Shown here piece by piece: positions 8,767 through 27,916 of a stretch of 64,000 nucleotides of DNA. The first letter of the stretch is position 1, and the number at the start of each line of letters is the position of its first letter. The stretch comes from Paracoccaceae bacterium (GTDB taxonomy: Bacteria; Pseudomonadota; Alphaproteobacteria; Rhodobacterales; Rhodobacteraceae), in the NCBI GenBank assembly GCA_003605175.1, contig QWDA01000003.1, positions 318,501 through 382,500 of the forward strand. The letters are read 5' to 3'. Below the pieces are notes generated by a model, which worked only from the letters and a program-made list of their open reading frames with translations, was not told the DNA's origin and ran no database searches. The position numbers and the translations under genes are program-made.

Positions 8767-9630
8767 TCAGCCTTCCGGGGCCAGCACGAAATCGAATTCG
8801 CAGACGGCGTCGGGTTCCCTGTCCAGGTCGTAGCCAAGCGCCGCGACATCCCTGGCGGGGAGGACCCTGGCCAGAAGCGATTTCCGCACCCCGAACACCG
8901 CGTCGTTGTCGGTATACTCGGTGCCTTCGAAGAAGATCTCGGTGGTGATCGCGTTCATCCCCGGATGGCGGATGATGTAGTGCAGATGCGCCGCGCGCCA
9001 GGCATGGCGGTCGCCGGCGCGCAGCAGTCTTCCGACCGGCCCGTCGAAGGGCACGGTATAGGGTTTGGGCAGGATGGTCGTATAATAGTAGCGCCCCTGG
9101 TCGTCGGTCTCGAAGATGCCGCGCAGGTCCATCTTGTCCTGTCCCTGCGCCTGCTCCTGTATCGGGTAGGTGCCCGCGCCGTCGGCCTGCCAGGTGTCGA
9201 CGATGGCGCCGGGCAGCGGCTTGTGAAGGGTGTCGGTCACCTTGCCGTGGACCAGGACGCAGGCGCCTTCGCGGCCGCCGGCAAGGTCGGCGCCAAGCTT
9301 CTTGCGGGGCGCGTCGTCGAGGTAGAAGGGGCCGAGGTTCGACCCCTCGGTCGCCCCGCCCTTGGAGTTGATCAGATCGACCAGCGCCGAGAAGCCCACC
9401 ACATCCGACAGCAGGATGAATTCGTGCCGCTCCGGCGTTGAGATCTGACCGCAATCGTAGAGGAAGTTCAGCACACCCATCCACTCTTCGTGGGTGATCT
9501 GGTTCTCGCGCGTGAAGTCGTGGAGGTGGTCTAGAAAGCCGTGAAGCAGCTTCTCGAACCGGCTGCCGGCTTCGGTCCTGAAGGAGTCCTTCACCGCCTG
9601 GGTGATCGTGAACTGATTGATGTCCCGCAT
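8767..9630 (-). CDS. Intradiol ring-cleavage dioxygenase (hydroxyquinol/catechol 1,2-dioxygenase family)
   Basis: This 287-aa protein has a helical N-terminal linker domain followed by the beta-sandwich catalytic domain. Predicted non-haem Fe(III) ligands are Y155 (WQADGAGTY), Y191 (PKPYTVPFDGPVG), H215 and H217 (AHLHY). The NLGPFY segment near 98-103 is also typical. Intradiol enzymes open catechols or hydroxyquinol to muconate or maleylacetate. The ATG at 9630 gives the usual length. The genes that normally follow (maleylacetate reductase, muconate cycloisomerase) are absent; an IclR gene and an amidohydrolase follow instead, so the natural substrate is open. Confidence 0.88.
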   Translation of the reverse strand: MRDINQFTITQAVKDSFRTEAGSRFEKLLHGFLDHLHDFTRENQITHEEWMGVLNFLYDCGQISTPERHEFILLSDVVGFSALVDLINSKGGATEGSNLGPFYLDDAPRKKLGADLAGGREGACVLVHGKVTDTLHKPLPGAIVDTWQADGAGTYPIQEQAQGQDKMDLRGIFETDDQGRYYYTTILPKPYTVPFDGPVGRLLRAGDRHAWRAAHLHYIIRHPGMNAITTEIFFEGTEYTDNDAVFGVRKSLLARVLPARDVAALGYDLDREPDAVCEFDFVLAPEG

Positions 9631-21243: not shown

Positions 21244-22173
21244 CTACGATTGCCGACCAAATGTGTAGATGTCTTCCTTGAACTTTATTCCTACCCGTTC
21301 AAGAAAGTCCAACTTATCTGAAAGGTTTACTGGATCGTATGGGGCTGGCGCAACTTCCACAACTTGATCTACGAGCTGAAGTTTATCGACATCGGGCATG
21401 GCATCCCATTTTTGAAGTGATAAGTACTGATCTTCTCCGAGTTCAATTTGAAGCACTCCAACCCGAAACTTCTCCGCGTAATCAAGAACGTTCAGAAGGG
21501 TCTTCTGATCGGATCCACCGGTTCGAAAACAGAAATATACGCGCTCCGCGAAACGTTTGTGCGAAACGGCTTCAAAAAAATAATATTGCCAATTCGTCGT
21601 TGATGGCTTTACCTCCACCGTCACGACTTCAACGTCGAAGAATCCCAACCTATCAATTGGCCGCAGGGCCAGAACGTCAGGGTTACCCCATTTCCCTCCT
21701 GATTTTACGTTTGCATATTCGTGCGTCGCCTGTTTGAGGTCCTTTTGCGATTTTAGCCAATGCGATACAAGCGGCCAGATGTGTCTCTCGTATGTCTTTT
21801 CTGGTTCTGCAGAGAAACGTTCCAGCGGTTCCCCGTCTGAGAATGAGTTGGTGAGACCTGGGCTATCCCCGGTGTTATTTAAAACTTCAGAGGCATCCAA
21901 AAAGTAACCGCCAGAGCGCCCTTTCCGGCTTTGAATTGGGCTTTCGAGGTTTTTTGATGCATTGAGTAGGATGTTGTATACTTGTCCATCCCTAAGGGAT
22001 TGAGATATTTCCTTCCTGATTTTCTGAATGACGTCCTTTGTTCCCATGGGTTGATCGGACGTATATCCCTCGAGGATCTTAAGTGCCTTCAAATAGATGT
22101 CCCTGTCGACTTCTTCCTCGATTTCATCCGGGACAGTGAATGCGTGCGAATTTGCATCCTCGGGTAATTGCAT
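21244..22173 (-). CDS. Standalone PD-(D/E)XK nuclease-like protein of unknown function
   Basis: This is a 309-aa protein. Residues about 25-90 are helical and may form a winged helix, ending in RKGRSGGYF. Residues 161-215 carry the nuclease-like core: GNPDVLAL with D166, then VEVVTVEVKPS with E187 and K189, followed by a helix and RFAERVYFCF. This fits the PD-(D/E)XK pattern of restriction enzymes and HrgA-like proteins. The start at 22173 is chosen because GAGGTGGAG lies 5 nt upstream; an ATG at 22239 has none. Codon use is clearly A+T-richer than all neighbours, indicating recent transfer. No methylase or partner is adjacent. The exact function is unknown. Confidence 0.75.
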   Translation of the reverse strand: MQLPEDANSHAFTVPDEIEEEVDRDIYLKALKILEGYTSDQPMGTKDVIQKIRKEISQSLRDGQVYNILLNASKNLESPIQSRKGRSGGYFLDASEVLNNTGDSPGLTNSFSDGEPLERFSAEPEKTYERHIWPLVSHWLKSQKDLKQATHEYANVKSGGKWGNPDVLALRPIDRLGFFDVEVVTVEVKPSTTNWQYYFFEAVSHKRFAERVYFCFRTGGSDQKTLLNVLDYAEKFRVGVLQIELGEDQYLSLQKWDAMPDVDKLQLVDQVVEVAPAPYDPVNLSDKLDFLERVGIKFKEDIYTFGRQS

Positions 22174-22287
22174 TCGCTCCACCTCGCAAACTTCTTGCGC
22201 TTGAGCCGTTTTCGGCTCCACCGCAGTATAACACCTCAACCAGGTGCCGCACGCAGTTTGGCTGCGCCAAACCGCTTTCGCGCACGC

Positions 22288-22325
22288 GTCGAACCCAAGC
22301 TAGAAATACAAGAAACCTGCGCTAG
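22288..22325 (+). repeat. Degenerate inverted copy of the ettA 3' end
   Basis: The plus strand from 22288 starts GTCGAACCCAAG, and its first 13 bases are the exact inverse of 22351-22363 within ettA. The following bases (CTAGAAATACAAGAAA, then TGCGC and TAG) align to the ettA tail that encodes [13 protein letters not shown]-stop, with one 2-nt gap near the start and a few substitutions. It is therefore a relict copy in opposite orientation, marking a junction between the core gene and the A+T-rich patch. The two arms could also pair in RNA, but no T-run follows. Confidence 0.65.
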
Positions 22326-23977
22326 CGCGCAAACTTTTTATATTTCAAGCGCTTGGGTTCGACGGAATCCGGCCCCAGCCGCCGCTTCTTGTCCTCCTCG
22401 TAATCCTCGAAATTGCCCTCGAACCATTCCACATGGGCCTCGCCCTCGAAGGCGAGGATGTGGGTGCAGAGGCGGTCGAGGAAGAAGCGGTCGTGGGAGA
22501 TGAGGACGGCGCAGCCGGCGAAGTCGGTCAGGGCGTCTTCCAGGGCGCGGAGGGTTTCGACGTCGAGGTCGTTGGTCGGTTCGTCGAGCAGGAGGACGTT
22601 GCCGCCGGATTTCAGGAGCTTCGCCATGTGGACGCGGTTGCGTTCGCCGCCCGAGAGGAGGCCGACCTTCTTCTGCTGGTCGCCGCCCTTGAAGTTGAAG
22701 GCGCCGCAATAGGCGCGGGAATTCATCGAGGCATCGCCCAGCTCGATCACCTCGGCGCCGCCGGAGATTTCCTCCCAGACGGTCTTTCCGGCATCGAGCG
22801 CGTCGCGGGACTGGTCGACATAGGCGAGCTTCACGGTCTCGCCATAGCTGATCTCGCCGGCATCGGGGGTTTCCTGGCCGGTGAGCATGCGGAAGAGCGT
22901 GGTCTTGCCGGCACCGTTCGGGCCGATCACGCCGACGATGCCGCCGGGGGGGAGCGAGAAGCTGAGGCCCTCGATGAGCTGCTTGTCGCCGAGATGCTTG
23001 GCGAGGCCCTCGACCTCGATGACCTTCTGGCCGAGGCGCGGCCCGTTCGGGATGACGATCTGGGCGCGGCCGATCTTTTCGCGCTCGGATTGCGCGGCGA
23101 GGTCGTTGTAGCGGTCGATCCGGGCCTTCTGCTTCGACTGGCGTGCCTTGGCGCCCTGCCGGATCCATTCGAGTTCGCGTTCGAGCGTCTTCTGGCGCGA
23201 CTTGTCCTCGCGGGCCTCCCGTTCGAGCCTTTTCGCCTTCTGTTCGAGCCAGGAGGAGTAGTTGCCCTCGTAGGGGATGCCCCGGCCGCGATCGAGTTCG
23301 AGGATCCAGCCGGTGATGTCGTCGAGGAAGTAGCGGTCGTGGGTGACGATCAGGATCGTGCCCTTGTAGTCGATCAGGTGCTGCTGCAGCCAGGCGATGG
23401 TCTCCGCGTCGAGATGGTTGGTCGGTTCGTCGAGCAGGAGCATCTCGGGCGCCTCGAGCAGCAGCTTGCAGAGCGCGACGCGGCGCTTCTCGCCGCCCGA
23501 GAGCGTGGCGACCGCGGCCTCGTCGGGCGGGCAGCGCAGCGCTTCCATGGCGACGTCGATCTGGCTGTCCAGGTCCCAGAGGTTCTGGCTGTCGATCTCG
23601 TCCTGCAGCGTCGCCATCTCGTCGGCGGTCTCGTCGGAGTAGTTCATCGCGAGCTCGTTGAACCGGTCGAGCTTGGCCTTCTTGGCGGCGACGCCCAGCA
23701 TGACGTTGTCGCGCACGGTGAGGGTCTCGTCGAGCTCGGGCTCCTGGGGGAGGTAGCCCACGCGGGCACCCTCGGCGGCCCATGCCTCGCCGGAGAAATC
23801 CTTGTCGATGCCGGCCATGATGCGCAGGAGCGTCGATTTGCCGGCGCCGTTGACGCCCACGACGCCGATCTTCACGCCGGGCAGGAAGGACAGTCGAACG
23901 TTCTCGAAGCACTTCTTGCCGCCCGGATAGGTCTTGGAGACGCCGTCCATATGGTAGACGTACTGGTAGCTGGCCAT
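22322..23977 (-). CDS. ettA: EttA, energy-dependent translational throttle ABC-F ATPase
   Basis: This 551-aa ABC-F protein has no membrane part. It contains two ATPase domains, with Walker [10 protein letters not shown] and GPNGAGKTT, signature [13 protein letters not shown] and [13 protein letters not shown], and Walker [12 protein letters not shown] and [11 protein letters not shown]. The basic arm region [15 protein letters not shown] lies between them. The opening [19 protein letters not shown] and the ending KYKKFAR identify EttA, which binds the ribosomal E site and gates the first elongation steps according to energy state. The ATG at 23977 gives the family length; the open frame upstream is not supported. 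Confidence 0.96.
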
Positions 23978-24184
23978 GAAGGGGTCCTTCGTTCGCGCGT
24001 TGCGGGTCGACCGGCTAGATAGCGGCGGGGCGGTCCGGGGGCAATGGCGACGGCCCCGGGCGCCGCCAGTTTCGGCCGGGTGGAGACGGCGGGGGATCTT
24101 CGGTTGCATCCGCTGACGGCACGGCGGGTGGAAAAGGGCGTGCCGGAGAGAATGGGGGCGAAGAAGGCCGGGAGGCGTGCCGCG

Positions 24185-24625
24185 CTAGCTGGTCACCCCG
24201 GCGTGCGAGGTCGCGGCGCCGTTCTGCAGATCGCGCTGCGTGGTCGCCGCGAGGAACAGGTCGACGAAGGCGTCGAGCAGCTTGAGATCCTCGCAGGCCG
24301 CCATTGCGCGGACGATCTGCTGGCCGCGGCGGGTGGCCATGAAGTGCAGCGTCTCGATCGAGGTCGCGGGCTTGACCTGGGTGCCCCCGTCGAGCCGCTC
24401 TTCGAGCTCGCTCAACAGGTCGCTCGCGGTCACGCCCAGCGCCGCGGCGACGGTGTAGAGCCGCGAGACCGAGACCTTGTTGGCGCCGGATTCGTATTTC
24501 TGGATCTGCTGGTAGGAGATCCCGGCGGCGTCGCCGAGTTCGACCTGGGACAGACCGGCGGAAAGGCGATACAGGCGGACGAGTTCGCCAAGCTCGCTGT
24601 CGAGCCGTTCGGATATGGAAGTCAA
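24185..24625 (-). CDS. XRE-family helix-turn-helix regulator
   Basis: This 146-aa protein has a central Cro/C1-type helix-turn-helix (LSQVELGDAAGISYQQIQKY, residues 25-44) followed by the NKVSVSRLYTVAAALGV helix common in alphaproteobacterial XRE proteins, then a helical tail. The start is a TTG at 24625 overlapping the TGA of the Lrp gene (TTGA), so the two regulators are translationally coupled. The coupling suggests joint control of the divergent YqcI/YcgG operon. Confidence 0.85.
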   Translation of the reverse strand: MTSISERLDSELGELVRLYRLSAGLSQVELGDAAGISYQQIQKYESGANKVSVSRLYTVAAALGVTASDLLSELEERLDGGTQVKPATSIETLHFMATRRGQQIVRAMAACEDLKLLDAFVDLFLAATTQRDLQNGAATSHAGVTS

Positions 24626-25125
24626 GAGACCGGTTCCCCCCTTCGGGTAATGACGTATTCTTCGGGGGCTGTTTCCTGGATGCCCGAGATCCGCTCGCAC
24701 CAGGTCTTGAGGACCATGGTCGTGGTCAGCGACGCGACTTCGGGGTGGCGGGCCAGCCGGTCGCGCAGATCCTCGATGATCGAGTGATCCGCGGCTTCGA
24801 CCAGCACCCGCATGTCGACCGATCCGGAGGTCGACCAGGCCGAGACCAGTTCGCTCCAGTTCGAGATCGACGAGTAGACCTTGCCGCAGACATTGCGGCG
24901 GAGCCGGACATCGAACATCGCGCGGATGCCCGTGGGCATGGAATCGTCGACCGTGTCGATATCGACGGTGAAGCGCCGGATCACCTTCTGGCGGACCAGC
25001 TTGTCGACATGGTGGCGCACGGTGGGCCGCGAAAGGCCGACGATGCCGGCGATTTCGGTCAGCGATCTGCGGCCGTTCTCCCGCAACAGTTCGAGAATCA
25101 TCTTATCTGTTGGACTGAGGCGCAC
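24622..25125 (-). CDS. Lrp/AsnC-family transcriptional regulator
   Basis: This 167-aa regulator has an AsnC-type winged helix (SLTEIAGIVGLSRPTVRHHVDKL, residues about 21-43) and a shorter-than-typical ligand domain with an atypical RRNVCGKVYSSI segment. Lrp/AsnC proteins usually sense amino acids. It is divergent from the YqcI/YcgG-cupin-permease operon across 134 bp and is followed in overlap by an XRE gene. Control of the divergent operon by an amino-acid-like ligand is inferred. Confidence 0.87.
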   Translation of the reverse strand: MRLSPTDKMILELLRENGRRSLTEIAGIVGLSRPTVRHHVDKLVRQKVIRRFTVDIDTVDDSMPTGIRAMFDVRLRRNVCGKVYSSISNWSELVSAWSTSGSVDMRVLVEAADHSIIEDLRDRLARHPEVASLTTTMVLKTWCERISGIQETAPEEYVITRRGEPVS

Positions 25126-25259
25126 TTGTCATCCTCCGTTTGGCATCAACTTACGGTAGTTTTTCGTCGAAACGAAGAGAAAATTTCAATTCGAAAGCTG
25201 CGCAACCGTTCGATTCCGACAATTCTCGACGAAATGTTCAAAATTTGGGGCCTGAGGTA
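25126..25259. promoter_or_regulatory. Divergent promoter region with TCGTCGAAA-type repeats
   Basis: This A+T-rich 134-bp spacer holds TTTCGTCGAAA (25162-25172) and a related TCTCGACGAAA (25224-25234), plus GAAAATTTC and AATTCGAAA between them. The repeated pyrimidine-CG-purine half-sites could bind the Lrp/AsnC or XRE protein. A ribosome-binding GAGG precedes the start of the plus-strand operon. Confidence 0.45.
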
Positions 25260-26015
25260 ATGGCAAGACTCCTTACATCCGGTGAGGTGCGCAGCCTGCA
25301 CGACTCACCATCCTGGCAGCGTGTCGTCTTTTCCGAGTTCGAATCGACGCTGACGAGCAAGTCGCGACCGTTTCCCTGCGTGTTCGGCGTGGCGGGCCTG
25401 AAGGCCGACCAGTTGCGCTATGTCTTCCTCGATCCGCTGGAACCCGAGCCTCTGGCGGAAGCGCTCCGGGAATACCTGCCGGCGGCGCGCGGGTTCGGGC
25501 GGATGACCTCGCTCGTGGTGTTCGGCCGGCCGGGGCCGGTGCAGAACATCGAGCACTACAGGAGCCGGTTCTGGAACATCCTGGACGGGCTCGAGCGGAT
25601 GGACACCGCGCCGCGGCCCGAGCTGGTCGACCGGCAGCTCGACAGCCCGTCCTGGGAGTTCTGCTTCGCGGGTGAGCCGATCTTCGTGGTCTGCAACTCG
25701 CCGGCCCATGTGCTCCGGCAGAGCCGGCGTTCGACCTCGTTCATGATCACGTTCCAGCCGCGCTGGGTGTTCGAGGGGATCACCGATTCCGAGGAGCCGG
25801 CGATGAAGAAGGCGCTGACCACGGTGCGCGAGCGCCTGAGGGCCTTCGACGCGATCTCGCCCTCGCCGCATCTGGGCGTCTATGGTGCCGAGGAAAATCG
25901 CGAGTACCGCCAGTATTTCATCGATGACAGCAACGATACGCCGGTCTGCCCGTTCCACAACCTCGGCCGGAGCAAGGGCACGGCGGAGGATGACAAGGAA
26001 GGACGTGTGGCATGA
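25260..26015 (+). CDS. YqcI/YcgG family protein (possible haem-dependent N-hydroxylase)
   Basis: This 251-aa protein has the family landmarks RPFPCVFG (residues 36-43), RFWNILDGL (103-111), WEFCFAGEPIFVVCNSPAH (132-150), SFMITFQPRWVF (160-171) and YRQYFIDD...CPFH (217-233). YqcI/YcgG proteins were long uncharacterised; from memory, some members in natural-product clusters were reported as haem-dependent amino-acid N-hydroxylases, and that is the only functional hint. The start is the ATG at 25260 after CTGAGGTA; the frame extends upstream without a credible ribosome site. It heads a four-gene operon with overlapping junctions. Confidence 0.8.
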   Translation: MARLLTSGEVRSLHDSPSWQRVVFSEFESTLTSKSRPFPCVFGVAGLKADQLRYVFLDPLEPEPLAEALREYLPAARGFGRMTSLVVFGRPGPVQNIEHYRSRFWNILDGLERMDTAPRPELVDRQLDSPSWEFCFAGEPIFVVCNSPAHVLRQSRRSTSFMITFQPRWVFEGITDSEEPAMKKALTTVRERLRAFDAISPSPHLGVYGAEENREYRQYFIDDSNDTPVCPFHNLGRSKGTAEDDKEGRVA

Positions 26016-26368
26016 ATCATCATGCGAGTTTCGACAGCACCGATGGCGATTTCAGGATCTTCTCGATGGAGATCGACACCGGCGACCTGCGCCCGCTGAT
26101 CGAGCAGCTTCTGCCCGATCAGGGCGCGATCGAGGTCCAGCGCGACGTGCCCGGCAAGGAGCATGCCTGGCACACCCATGACACCGACGAGACGCTGGTG
26201 ATCCTTGACGGGCGGGTGCGGTTCTACTGGGACCAGGGCGAGAAGATCTGCGGCCCCGGCACGGTGATCTCGCTGCCGGCGGGCACGCTGCACGGCTCGG
26301 TCGCGCTGGAGGAGGGGGCCACCTACCTGATCGCCTTCAACGCGGTGAAGTTCACCCATCATGGCTGA
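26012..26368 (+). CDS. Small single-domain cupin protein
   Basis: This 118-aa protein is one cupin barrel. Motif 1 supplies H54, H56 and E60 (HAWHTHDTDETLVIL) and motif 2 supplies H94 (PAGTLHGSV), a complete metal-binding set. The ATG overlaps the YqcI/YcgG stop by 4 nt, and the stop overlaps the permease start, so it is co-translated with both. It may act on, or bind, the product of the YqcI/YcgG enzyme. No precise activity can be read. Confidence 0.85.
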   Translation: MNHHASFDSTDGDFRIFSMEIDTGDLRPLIEQLLPDQGAIEVQRDVPGKEHAWHTHDTDETLVILDGRVRFYWDQGEKICGPGTVISLPAGTLHGSVALEEGATYLIAFNAVKFTHHG

Positions 26369-27623
26369 TCTCGACAAGGCCATCGGGCCCTGGCGCGGGA
26401 CGGCGATGCTGTTGAACATCGTCCTCGGCGCCGGGCTTCTGGCGCTGCCGGGGCTGGCGGTGAAAGCCGCCGGCTCTTCGGCGATTCTCGTTTGGGTGAT
26501 CTGCGCGGTGGCGGCGGTGCCGCTGCTCGTGGTCTTCGCCACGCTCGGGCGGTCGTTTCCCGATGCGGGCGGGCTTGCGACCTTCATGAAACACGCCTTC
26601 GGCGCGCCGGGCTATGCCTGCGCGACCTTCCTGTTCCTGGGCGCGGTGGCGGTCGGGCTGCCGGCGATCGCGCTCACCGGGGGCTATTATGCCGCCGCGG
26701 TGCTGGGCGGGCCGCCGACGCTCTTTGCCGCGCTCCTGATCGGCGGCGCGCTGATGGCGAACCTGCTTTCGGCCGAGATCGCTGCCCGGGTCAATGCCGC
26801 GCTCGCCTCGGCGATCCTCCTGGTCCTCGTCGCGGTCGCGGTGCTGGGCTGGGTCGCGGTGCGGCCGAGCCTGGACACGGTGACGCTGGTGCCGCAGACG
26901 CTGCCTGACCCGCCGGTTCTCGGCCTCGCGGTGATGATGGTATTCTTCGCCTTCACCGGCTGGGAGGTCGGCGCCAATCTGGGCGGCGAGTTCAGGAACC
27001 CCGAACGCGATTTCCCGATCGCCATCGCCGCGAGCTTCGGGATCGCGGTGGCGCTCTATCTGGTTCTCGCGGTGATCGTCGTGGCGGCGGGGCCGGAAGG
27101 GGCCAGCGAGGCGCCCTTCGCGGCGATTTTCGGCGACCGGTTCGGCCCGGCGGGCGGGCAGGCGATCTCGGCGATCTCGGTGGTGATGATCTTCGCCAAT
27201 CTCTCGGCGGCGTTCTGGGCGGTGTCGCGCATGGTCTATTCGGCGGCGGGCGAGCGGCTCCTCGCGCGCGATCTTGCGCGGCTGAGCCGGGGCGTGCCCC
27301 TGCGCGCGGTCTTCGCGACGGCGGCGGTGCTGCTTGCGGTCGTGCTCCTGGCGGCATCGGGACTGCTCGACCTGAGCGTGCTTCTGGGTGCGGCCGGGCA
27401 GAACTTCCTTTTGCTTTATGCCGGCGCCGCCGCGGCGCTGGTCAGGCTGGGCAGCCGGCCGGGCCACAAGGTGCTGGGCTGGCTCTGCCTCGCGATGGTG
27501 ACCTGCATGATGGCGATCCGGGGGCCGGACGGGCTCTACTATCCGGCGATCCTGATCGCGGTCGGGCTCGGCGTGGCGTTCCTGCGCCGGCCCCGGAATT
27601 CGGAGGCGACGGGAGGCGCATGA
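26361..27623 (+). CDS. APC-superfamily amino acid permease
   Basis: This 420-aa polytopic protein has about 11-12 helices. The first helix carries NIVLGAGLLALPGL, the glycine-rich break that binds substrate amine and carboxylate in APC transporters, and the FFAFTGWEVGANLGGEFRNPERDFP segment matches helix 6 and the following loop. It overlaps the cupin gene by 8 nt and the next small gene by 4. In this operon it probably moves an amino acid or a modified amino acid; direction is not readable. Confidence 0.87.
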   Translation: MADLDKAIGPWRGTAMLLNIVLGAGLLALPGLAVKAAGSSAILVWVICAVAAVPLLVVFATLGRSFPDAGGLATFMKHAFGAPGYACATFLFLGAVAVGLPAIALTGGYYAAAVLGGPPTLFAALLIGGALMANLLSAEIAARVNAALASAILLVLVAVAVLGWVAVRPSLDTVTLVPQTLPDPPVLGLAVMMVFFAFTGWEVGANLGGEFRNPERDFPIAIAASFGIAVALYLVLAVIVVAAGPEGASEAPFAAIFGDRFGPAGGQAISAISVVMIFANLSAAFWAVSRMVYSAAGERLLARDLARLSRGVPLRAVFATAAVLLAVVLLAASGLLDLSVLLGAAGQNFLLLYAGAAAALVRLGSRPGHKVLGWLCLAMVTCMMAIRGPDGLYYPAILIAVGLGVAFLRRPRNSEATGGA

Positions 27624-27916
27624 AACACGTACGCAGCGAACAGGAGTTCACCCGGCACGGCCGCGAAGAGCTGAAGGACAAGCTCTTCGTGATTCTTGCC
27701 GGCCTGGACGAGCGGCGCCTCATGACGGTGCTCGATTTCGTGAACGAGGTGGTGACGTGCAACGATCCCGACGTGGTCGACGAGTTCGTCGAGTGGCGCG
27801 AAGATCCGATGATCGGCAGCATCCTGCAGATCGCCGCAACGATCAGCCGCGAGACGCGCGAGCAGCTCCTGTTCGCGGCGGAGGAACTGTTTTCGAGCGA
27901 GTCGGTGCATCACTGA
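27620..27916 (+). CDS. Uncharacterised 98-aa acidic helical protein
   Basis: I do not recognise this protein. It is 98 aa, soluble, rich in Glu, Asp and Leu, and predicted mostly helical, with LKDKLFVILAGLDERRLMTV and WREDPMIGSILQIAATISRE as its main blocks. Its ATG overlaps the permease stop by 4 nt (ATGA), so it is clearly the fourth gene of the YqcI/YcgG operon. It could be a regulatory or adaptor subunit. No terminator follows within 200 nt. Confidence 0.7.
   Translation: MKHVRSEQEFTRHGREELKDKLFVILAGLDERRLMTVLDFVNEVVTCNDPDVVDEFVEWREDPMIGSILQIAATISRETREQLLFAAEELFSSESVHH

Follow-up and report, generated by a model that had tools for sequence, protein, structure and literature searches.

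A compact gene unit built around a YqcI/YcgG oxygenase and a small cupin, with a possible role in making an N-oxidised amino acid

Gene organization of the locus

This study concerns a 64,000-nt stretch of DNA (the window) from a Paracoccaceae bacterium (contig QWDA01000003.1) and, within it, a compact unit of six genes forming two divergent transcription units: a minus-strand pair, lrp/asnC and an XRE-family gene, and a plus-strand row encoding a YqcI/YcgG protein (P0001), a cupin (P0002), a permease and a small protein (Table 1). Gene coordinates are positions within the window, and L-numbers (L002 and so on) denote comparison loci from other genomes. An earlier sequence-only reading had described this gene set with its coordinates, the 4–8 nt overlaps on the plus strand and the overlap of the Lrp stop with a TTG-started XRE gene, and all of this was confirmed: the six open frames lie at these positions, with overlaps of 4 nt (XRE/Lrp) and then 4, 8 and 4 nt along the plus strand. 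The TTG start is backed by the orthologues of Silicimonas (L003) and IP29b (L007), which have ATG at the matching 4-nt overlap with the Lrp stop, and the sequence GAGG is found at 25254–25257, immediately 5' of the yqcI ATG.

Table 1. Features of the six-gene unit
Feature	Position	Strand	Basis
XRE-family helix-turn-helix (HTH) regulator	24185..24625	-	HTH_3 1.9e-13; TTG start; 4-nt overlap with lrp stop; orthologues in L002–L007, 37–52% identity
Lrp/AsnC-family regulator	24622..25125	-	HTH_24 2.3e-13, AsnC_trans_reg 1.2e-9; 78–82% identity in six closest relatives
Divergent promoter region, lrp–yqcI intergenic	25126..25259	.	Alignment of seven loci
41-bp operator-like block TTTTTCGTCGAAACGAAGAGAAAATTTCAATTCGAAAGCTG, containing palindrome TTTCGTCGAAA	25160..25200	.	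Conservation across loci
YqcI/YcgG haem-thiolate guanidine N-oxygenase (P0001; predicted), predicted axial ligand Cys40	25260..26015	+	PF08892 5e-62; AglA 9ub3 E=7e-29; residue map
Single-domain cupin (P0002), metal ligands H54, H56, E60, H94; invariant Tyr105	26012..26368	+	Cupin_2 2.8e-9; alignment; AlphaFold model, predicted local distance difference test (pLDDT) 86.5
APC-superfamily amino acid carrier related to exporter YjeH	26361..27623	+	AA_permease_2 1.8e-30; PRK11021 3.3e-50, 171 bits
Small helical protein	27620..27916	+	DPDxxxxF and R-x-D positions conserved; five orthologues aligned, 32–38% identity

Conservation and mobility of the YqcI–cupin pair

All six genes occur in the same order in L002–L006, at 32–82% protein identity and between differing flanks, and the arrangement is therefore not a product of chance; L007 ends inside the permease gene. 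The cupin gene directly follows yqcI in 18/18 intact loci checked among alpha-, beta- and gammaproteobacteria (15 clade members and three plasmid loci), and one of these genomes, that of L079, was reached through a YqcI search alone and proved to have the cupin as well. The core is thus kept across three proteobacterial classes, beyond close relatives. In the YqcI tree, the cassette proteins make up a single clade (100/99) that excludes the GrbE group, and their distances track those of the cupins (Mantel r 0.92, 0/5000 permutations), partly through shared species history.

The plasmid NZ_CP019242.1 of Rhodoferax antarcticus encodes a 357-residue YqcI–cupin fusion (291 bits for YqcI, 93 bits for the cassette cupin), with no Met near the cupin start and an overlapping permease gene next. 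This fusion ties both activities to one pathway, and it appears to be a Rosetta-stone case with an SznF-like layout, in which haem would replace diiron chemistry. Together, YqcI and the cupin very likely act in a joint pathway. Genes for a 2-oxoglutarate-Fe(II) oxygenase and a LysE-family transporter follow the fusion (L083 8357–9897), and the fusion product may be processed further.

Concerning the distribution, a PF08892 gene was found in 9 of 298 genomes of the same family, and the cassette type in 4 of 385 genomes of the class and 2 of 399 of the phylum (source genome counted in each), showing that the cassette is rare and patchy. Plasmids of Rhodobacteraceae SC52, Thioclava and Leisingera bear the cassette core, and the six-gene unit is mobile. 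The YqcI–cupin–permease row was also found in Halomonas, Billgrantia and Aidingimonas (with an Lrp gene downstream), in Tistrella and in one Burkholderiales metagenome-assembled genome (MAG). The third gene usually encodes a YjeH-type permease; an MFS carrier takes its place in L079 and ATP-grasp ligases in L008 and L009, the latter also having an MFS carrier. The ligase-bearing YqcI–cupin pairs lie at 9128–10405 in L008 and 10450–12932 in L009 (Allorhizobium), where the pair also adjoins a FecI–FecR–STN/plug receptor set, a hint of a metallophore. A siderophore role was not adopted on this basis: STN and a weak match to the plug domain were all that was recognised in the receptor, which is suggestive at most.

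The XRE and small protein genes evolve fast and are dispensable, neither being annotated in Thioclava. The idea of a six-gene cassette hence holds as regards gene order in L002–L006, and the constant core is narrower, namely YqcI and the cupin, usually with the permease. The small protein had no Pfam or NCBIfam match in profile searches, showed no kinship with the XRE C-terminus when this was tested, and gave an AlphaFold model (pLDDT 60) that was too poor to be used. None of the four plus-strand proteins had a PADLOC match, and a role in anti-phage defence was set aside. Outside the unit, the cassette is flanked by an ABC-F ATPase gene both in the window (22322–24109) and in the Burkholderiales MAG (L010 6045–7934), the two being 55% identical; linkage was rejected, as the flanks are unrelated in the other loci checked. 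A minus-strand gene at 21244–22239 encodes a 331-residue protein without a significant Pfam family.

Predicted chemistry, export and regulation

P0001 is a full member of the YqcI/YcgG family (209.9 bits against a curated cut-off of 27), and it is a homologue of AglA (PDB 9ub3), a crystallised haem guanidine N-hydroxylase and the one member of this family that was met with in the PDB. When the AglA residues named in PMC12866846 were mapped, Cys44, Phe152, Arg166, Gln177, Arg179, Phe182, Arg200 and Gln228 were found to be kept as C40, F142, R156, Q166, R168, F171, R190 and Q218, that is, the axial Cys together with the haem-propionate and guanidine pocket. Cys40 aligns with the axial haem cysteine (AglA Cys44, ChmN Cys47) and is invariant in 14/14 cassette rows. 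Inversely, the phosphonate-holding residues of AglA are not kept, and the cationic residue at the Lys196 position is lost in a cassette-specific manner (Leu in P0001; Leu, Phe, Val or Thr among cassette proteins). The possible haem N-hydroxylase of the sequence-only reading thereby gains strong support, and N-hydroxylation of an arginine-like guanidine is likely its reaction. An assignment to GntA (NF041366 equivalog) failed, at 43.6 bits against the 145 required. The source genome has one YqcI gene. Five divergent YqcI proteins from the same bacterial family (L051–L055) carry Asn at the position of AglA Gln177, and three of the five His at that of Arg179; these probably act on other substrates.

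P0002 has 118 residues and consists of a cupin domain only, whose metal site HxHDxDE…LHG was complete in the alignment, as the sequence-only reading had proposed. Tyr105, 11 residues past the last His, is invariant in 14 aligned cassette cupins and present in further ones read, and seven other cupins of the source genome have R, V, V, T, I, F and L there. The N–N-forming cupins of SznF and GrbD likewise have a Tyr at this place. The cassette pattern H54-T-H56-D-T-D-E60 … L-H94-G … Y105 can be set beside H407-C-H409-D-G-D-E … L-H448-G … Y459 of SznF, taken from a MobE–SznF alignment: the His-to-Tyr distance is 11 in both and the His-to-His distance 39 in SznF and 38 in the cassette cupin, the three-His site and the Tyr459 position of SznF thus being found in P0002 (H54, H56, H94, Y105) at nearly matching spacing. 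When the AlphaFold model of P0002 was compared with the PDB, no other structure of the top 50 reached the query TM-score of SznF (0.61), which stood at E rank 38. A cassette cupin profile run against a small pool of 1747 open frames placed the GrbD-type cupins of three Accumulibacter/Propionivibrio loci at the top (27.3, 26.8 and 24.1 bits), ahead of all 13 other own-genome cupin matches (best 22.7). The HDO-like domains that precede the cupin in N-nitrosating proteins of the SznF/GrbD type are absent from P0002; MobE as a query had no match in the source genome, and a wider search for GrbD relatives gave one match, Tistrella itself, in 249 genomes. P0002 and the SznF/GrbD cupins are therefore alike in metal site and catalytic Tyr and weakly akin overall, a likeness that may reflect either common descent or convergence.

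The carrier is a homologue of YjeH only, as its 171.3 bits to PRK11021 lie under the 284-bit equivalog cut-off. E. coli YjeH exports the neutral amino acids Met, Leu, Ile and Val (PMC8140960), and homology together with the exporter swaps in relatives suggests that the carrier works outward. The cupin-less YqcI genes of five Firmicutes (L014, L015, L017, L018, L024) adjoin LysE-type exporters (Pfam LysE tested for L014); if the cupin strips the guanidinium charge, this would explain why units with a cupin have a neutral amino acid exporter and those without it a LysE-type one. A DUF1989 gene lies near YqcI in L014 and L018.

Lrp/AsnC is the best conserved protein of the unit. In the intergenic region of the seven six-gene loci, the 41-bp block has 82% column identity, against 56% outside it, and no gaps; at each of the seven its leave-one-out score exceeds 500/500 shuffles, it matches once in the window against 0 expected, and it is also found in SC52 and Thioclava. 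As Thioclava has the block and no annotated XRE gene, Lrp is the likelier binder.

Our best explanation, to which we give a probability of roughly 0.45, is that the unit serves to produce an N-oxidised amino acid of small size, probably N–N-bonded, and to export it. In the proposed pathway, the YqcI/YcgG protein would bind haem via Cys40 and, like ChmN, hydroxylate free L-arginine or a closely related compound at its guanidine nitrogens, a step well supported by the homology described above. The cupin would then bind one metal, probably Fe(II), through H54, H56, E60 and H94 and rearrange the hydroxylated guanidine, with Tyr105 acting as Tyr459 does in SznF. The likeliest product would be a diazeniumdiolate (graminine-like) or an N-nitroso amino acid, exported by the YjeH-type carrier once the guanidinium charge is lost, and Lrp/AsnC (in some relatives also XRE) would sense an amino acid and control the divergent promoter via the 41-bp block. 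The YqcI and cupin steps would go together, and the export or ligation step exchangeable. Formation of an N–N bond by the pair has about an even chance. The very small, perhaps N–N-bonded product of the sequence-only reading remains plausible and has gained ground from the SznF/GrbD parallel and from the fusion; of the making, sensing or detoxifying of an N-oxidised amino acid that it had considered, biosynthesis with export fits best, and sensing or detoxification is less likely with a permease resembling YjeH.

Several data weigh against this explanation. To our knowledge, N–N bond formation by the GrbD and ChmM cupins has itself not been reconstituted. The guanidine-pocket positions are nearly universal across the 50 family proteins compared, so they indicate membership and competence, not a substrate, and do not prove arginine. 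No redox partner is encoded within the unit, and the sister of cassette YqcI is a group of cupin-less Firmicutes enzymes, not GrbE. As judged from its sequence, P0002 is not specifically SznF-like: a PDB sequence search favours generic Cupin_2 proteins and quercetinase (SznF E=0.19), and the cassette profile scores SznF at 15.4 bits and Tistrella's own GrbD (MobE) at 6.4 bits. Its 3-His-1-Glu site is a common one, whereas Arg takes the place of the Glu in MobE and the SznF metal site has been described with three His only. Within an intact operon, the cupin of Phycocomes zhengii (L006 2257–2619) has N and R in place of the metal ligands H56 and H94. Tistrella holds both the graminine cluster and the cassette, which suggests that their products may differ.

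Some of these data suit a different course after N-hydroxylation, in which the cupin turns the hydroxylated guanidine, by oxidation or cleavage, into N-hydroxyornithine, a hydroxyurea or an oxime for export, with no N–N bond. The 3-His-1-Glu site and the generic and quercetinase matches agree with it, and DcsA-type pathways, as known for that family, use hydroxyarginine without an N–N bond. DcsA is named in PMC10849742. We consider this course somewhat unlikely, since the Tyr at His+11, the HxHDxDE…LHG pattern and the SznF-like spacing speak against it, and since in three known cases where an amino acid N-oxygenase is paired with a cupin, N–N bonds result or are believed to result (PMC11705231, PMC2922099).

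The patchy distribution, plasmid location and divergent Lrp/XRE regulators would also fit a conditional function, namely a resistance or catabolic unit in which an arginine analogue, imported or expelled by the permease, is rendered harmless by YqcI and the cupin upon induction via Lrp. This is improbable, since the unit lacks a transaminase, hydrolase or lyase, its carrier is nearest to an exporter, and the replacement of the carrier by an ATP-grasp ligase in relatives points to biosynthesis. Least probable is a non-catalytic cupin serving in binding, sensing or folding in a unit that makes only hydroxyarginine, which the Phycocomes cupin would suit but which is at odds with the ligands and Tyr kept in the other cassette cupins and with the Rhodoferax fusion.

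If N–N bond formation is accepted, the unit may be the smallest known route to an N–N-bonded amino acid, with no peptide assembly line. In its fullest form this explanation is tentative. Two enzymes, in one organism joined in a single bifunctional polypeptide, would convert free arginine by a carrier-free route into an N–N-bonded amino acid (a diazeniumdiolate or an N-nitroso compound), and aquatic bacteria and others would release it unaltered to serve as metal chelator, nitric oxide-releasing compound or signal.

Comparison with known N-oxygenase and cupin systems

Operons of a related kind were described by Iyer and colleagues in 2010. They contain HDO-cupin proteins, ATP-grasp or non-ribosomal peptide synthetase (NRPS) genes, YqcI and efflux genes (PMC2922099). 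Among characterised systems, ChmN is a haem arginine N-oxygenase that di-hydroxylates Arg (PMC10849742), GrbD and GrbE are required for graminine, which derives from Arg (PMC9679993), and MobE is the GrbD relative of the tistrellabactin cluster in Tistrella (PMC10391617). The pairs ChmN and ChmM (chalkophomycin), GrbE and GrbD (gramibactin) and the MobF N-terminus and MobE share with the cassette a YqcI/YcgG haem oxygenase beside an HxH...H...Tyr cupin protein, with arginine as their precursor (PMC10849742, PMC9679993, PMC10391617). However, their cupin forms the C-terminus of an SznF-like protein and the product is used by an NRPS, whereas the cupin of the cassette is free, and the cassette YqcI proteins lie outside the GrbE clade. 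No NRPS with a graminine adenylation (A) domain was recognised in the open frames that surround the unit, the whole genome not having been searched for NRPS. In Accumulibacter/Propionivibrio (L021 4085–8789, L029 4286–8762, L034 4293–8696), a GrbD-like gene, one for an AMP-binding adenylation protein and yqcI stand in a row (the adenylation protein checked with Pfam in L029), apparently a cryptic N–N cluster.

AglA (argolaphos) is alike in its haem-thiolate YqcI family, axial Cys and guanidine pocket, and differs in its substrate, aminomethylphosphonate-arginine, being essentially inactive on free Arg. SznF (streptozotocin) likewise joins an N-oxygenase to a mononuclear cupin, a one-polypeptide layout repeated by the Rhodoferax fusion, although its oxidation is carried out by a diiron HDO domain, not haem, and overall sequence similarity is weak. 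In the hydrazine synthetases, too, an amino acid N-oxygenase and a small cupin, which may be fused or free, give an N–N bond, but these systems use a flavin oxygenase and an ATP-dependent methionyl-tRNA synthetase (MetRS) domain in the MetRS-cupin protein, neither of which is in the unit.

In the literature found, with most subscription journals outside its coverage, there was no description of a free cupin with YqcI, of a YqcI–cupin fusion or of the cassette. The sequence-only reading, which knew of no description of the set, is borne out to this extent, while YqcI and cupin chemistry has already been proposed for graminine siderophores. Since reconstitution of the ChmM/GrbD cupin step is not known, a cupin of 118 residues that comes with an oxygenase of its own, together with a natural fusion, would offer a much simpler test system. 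If the proposed route is true, it would also point to a class of N–N amino acids in free form, which would tend to escape genome mining by SznF, NRPS or A-domain codes. Compared with these systems, the cassette is a new, minimal form of a known chemistry.

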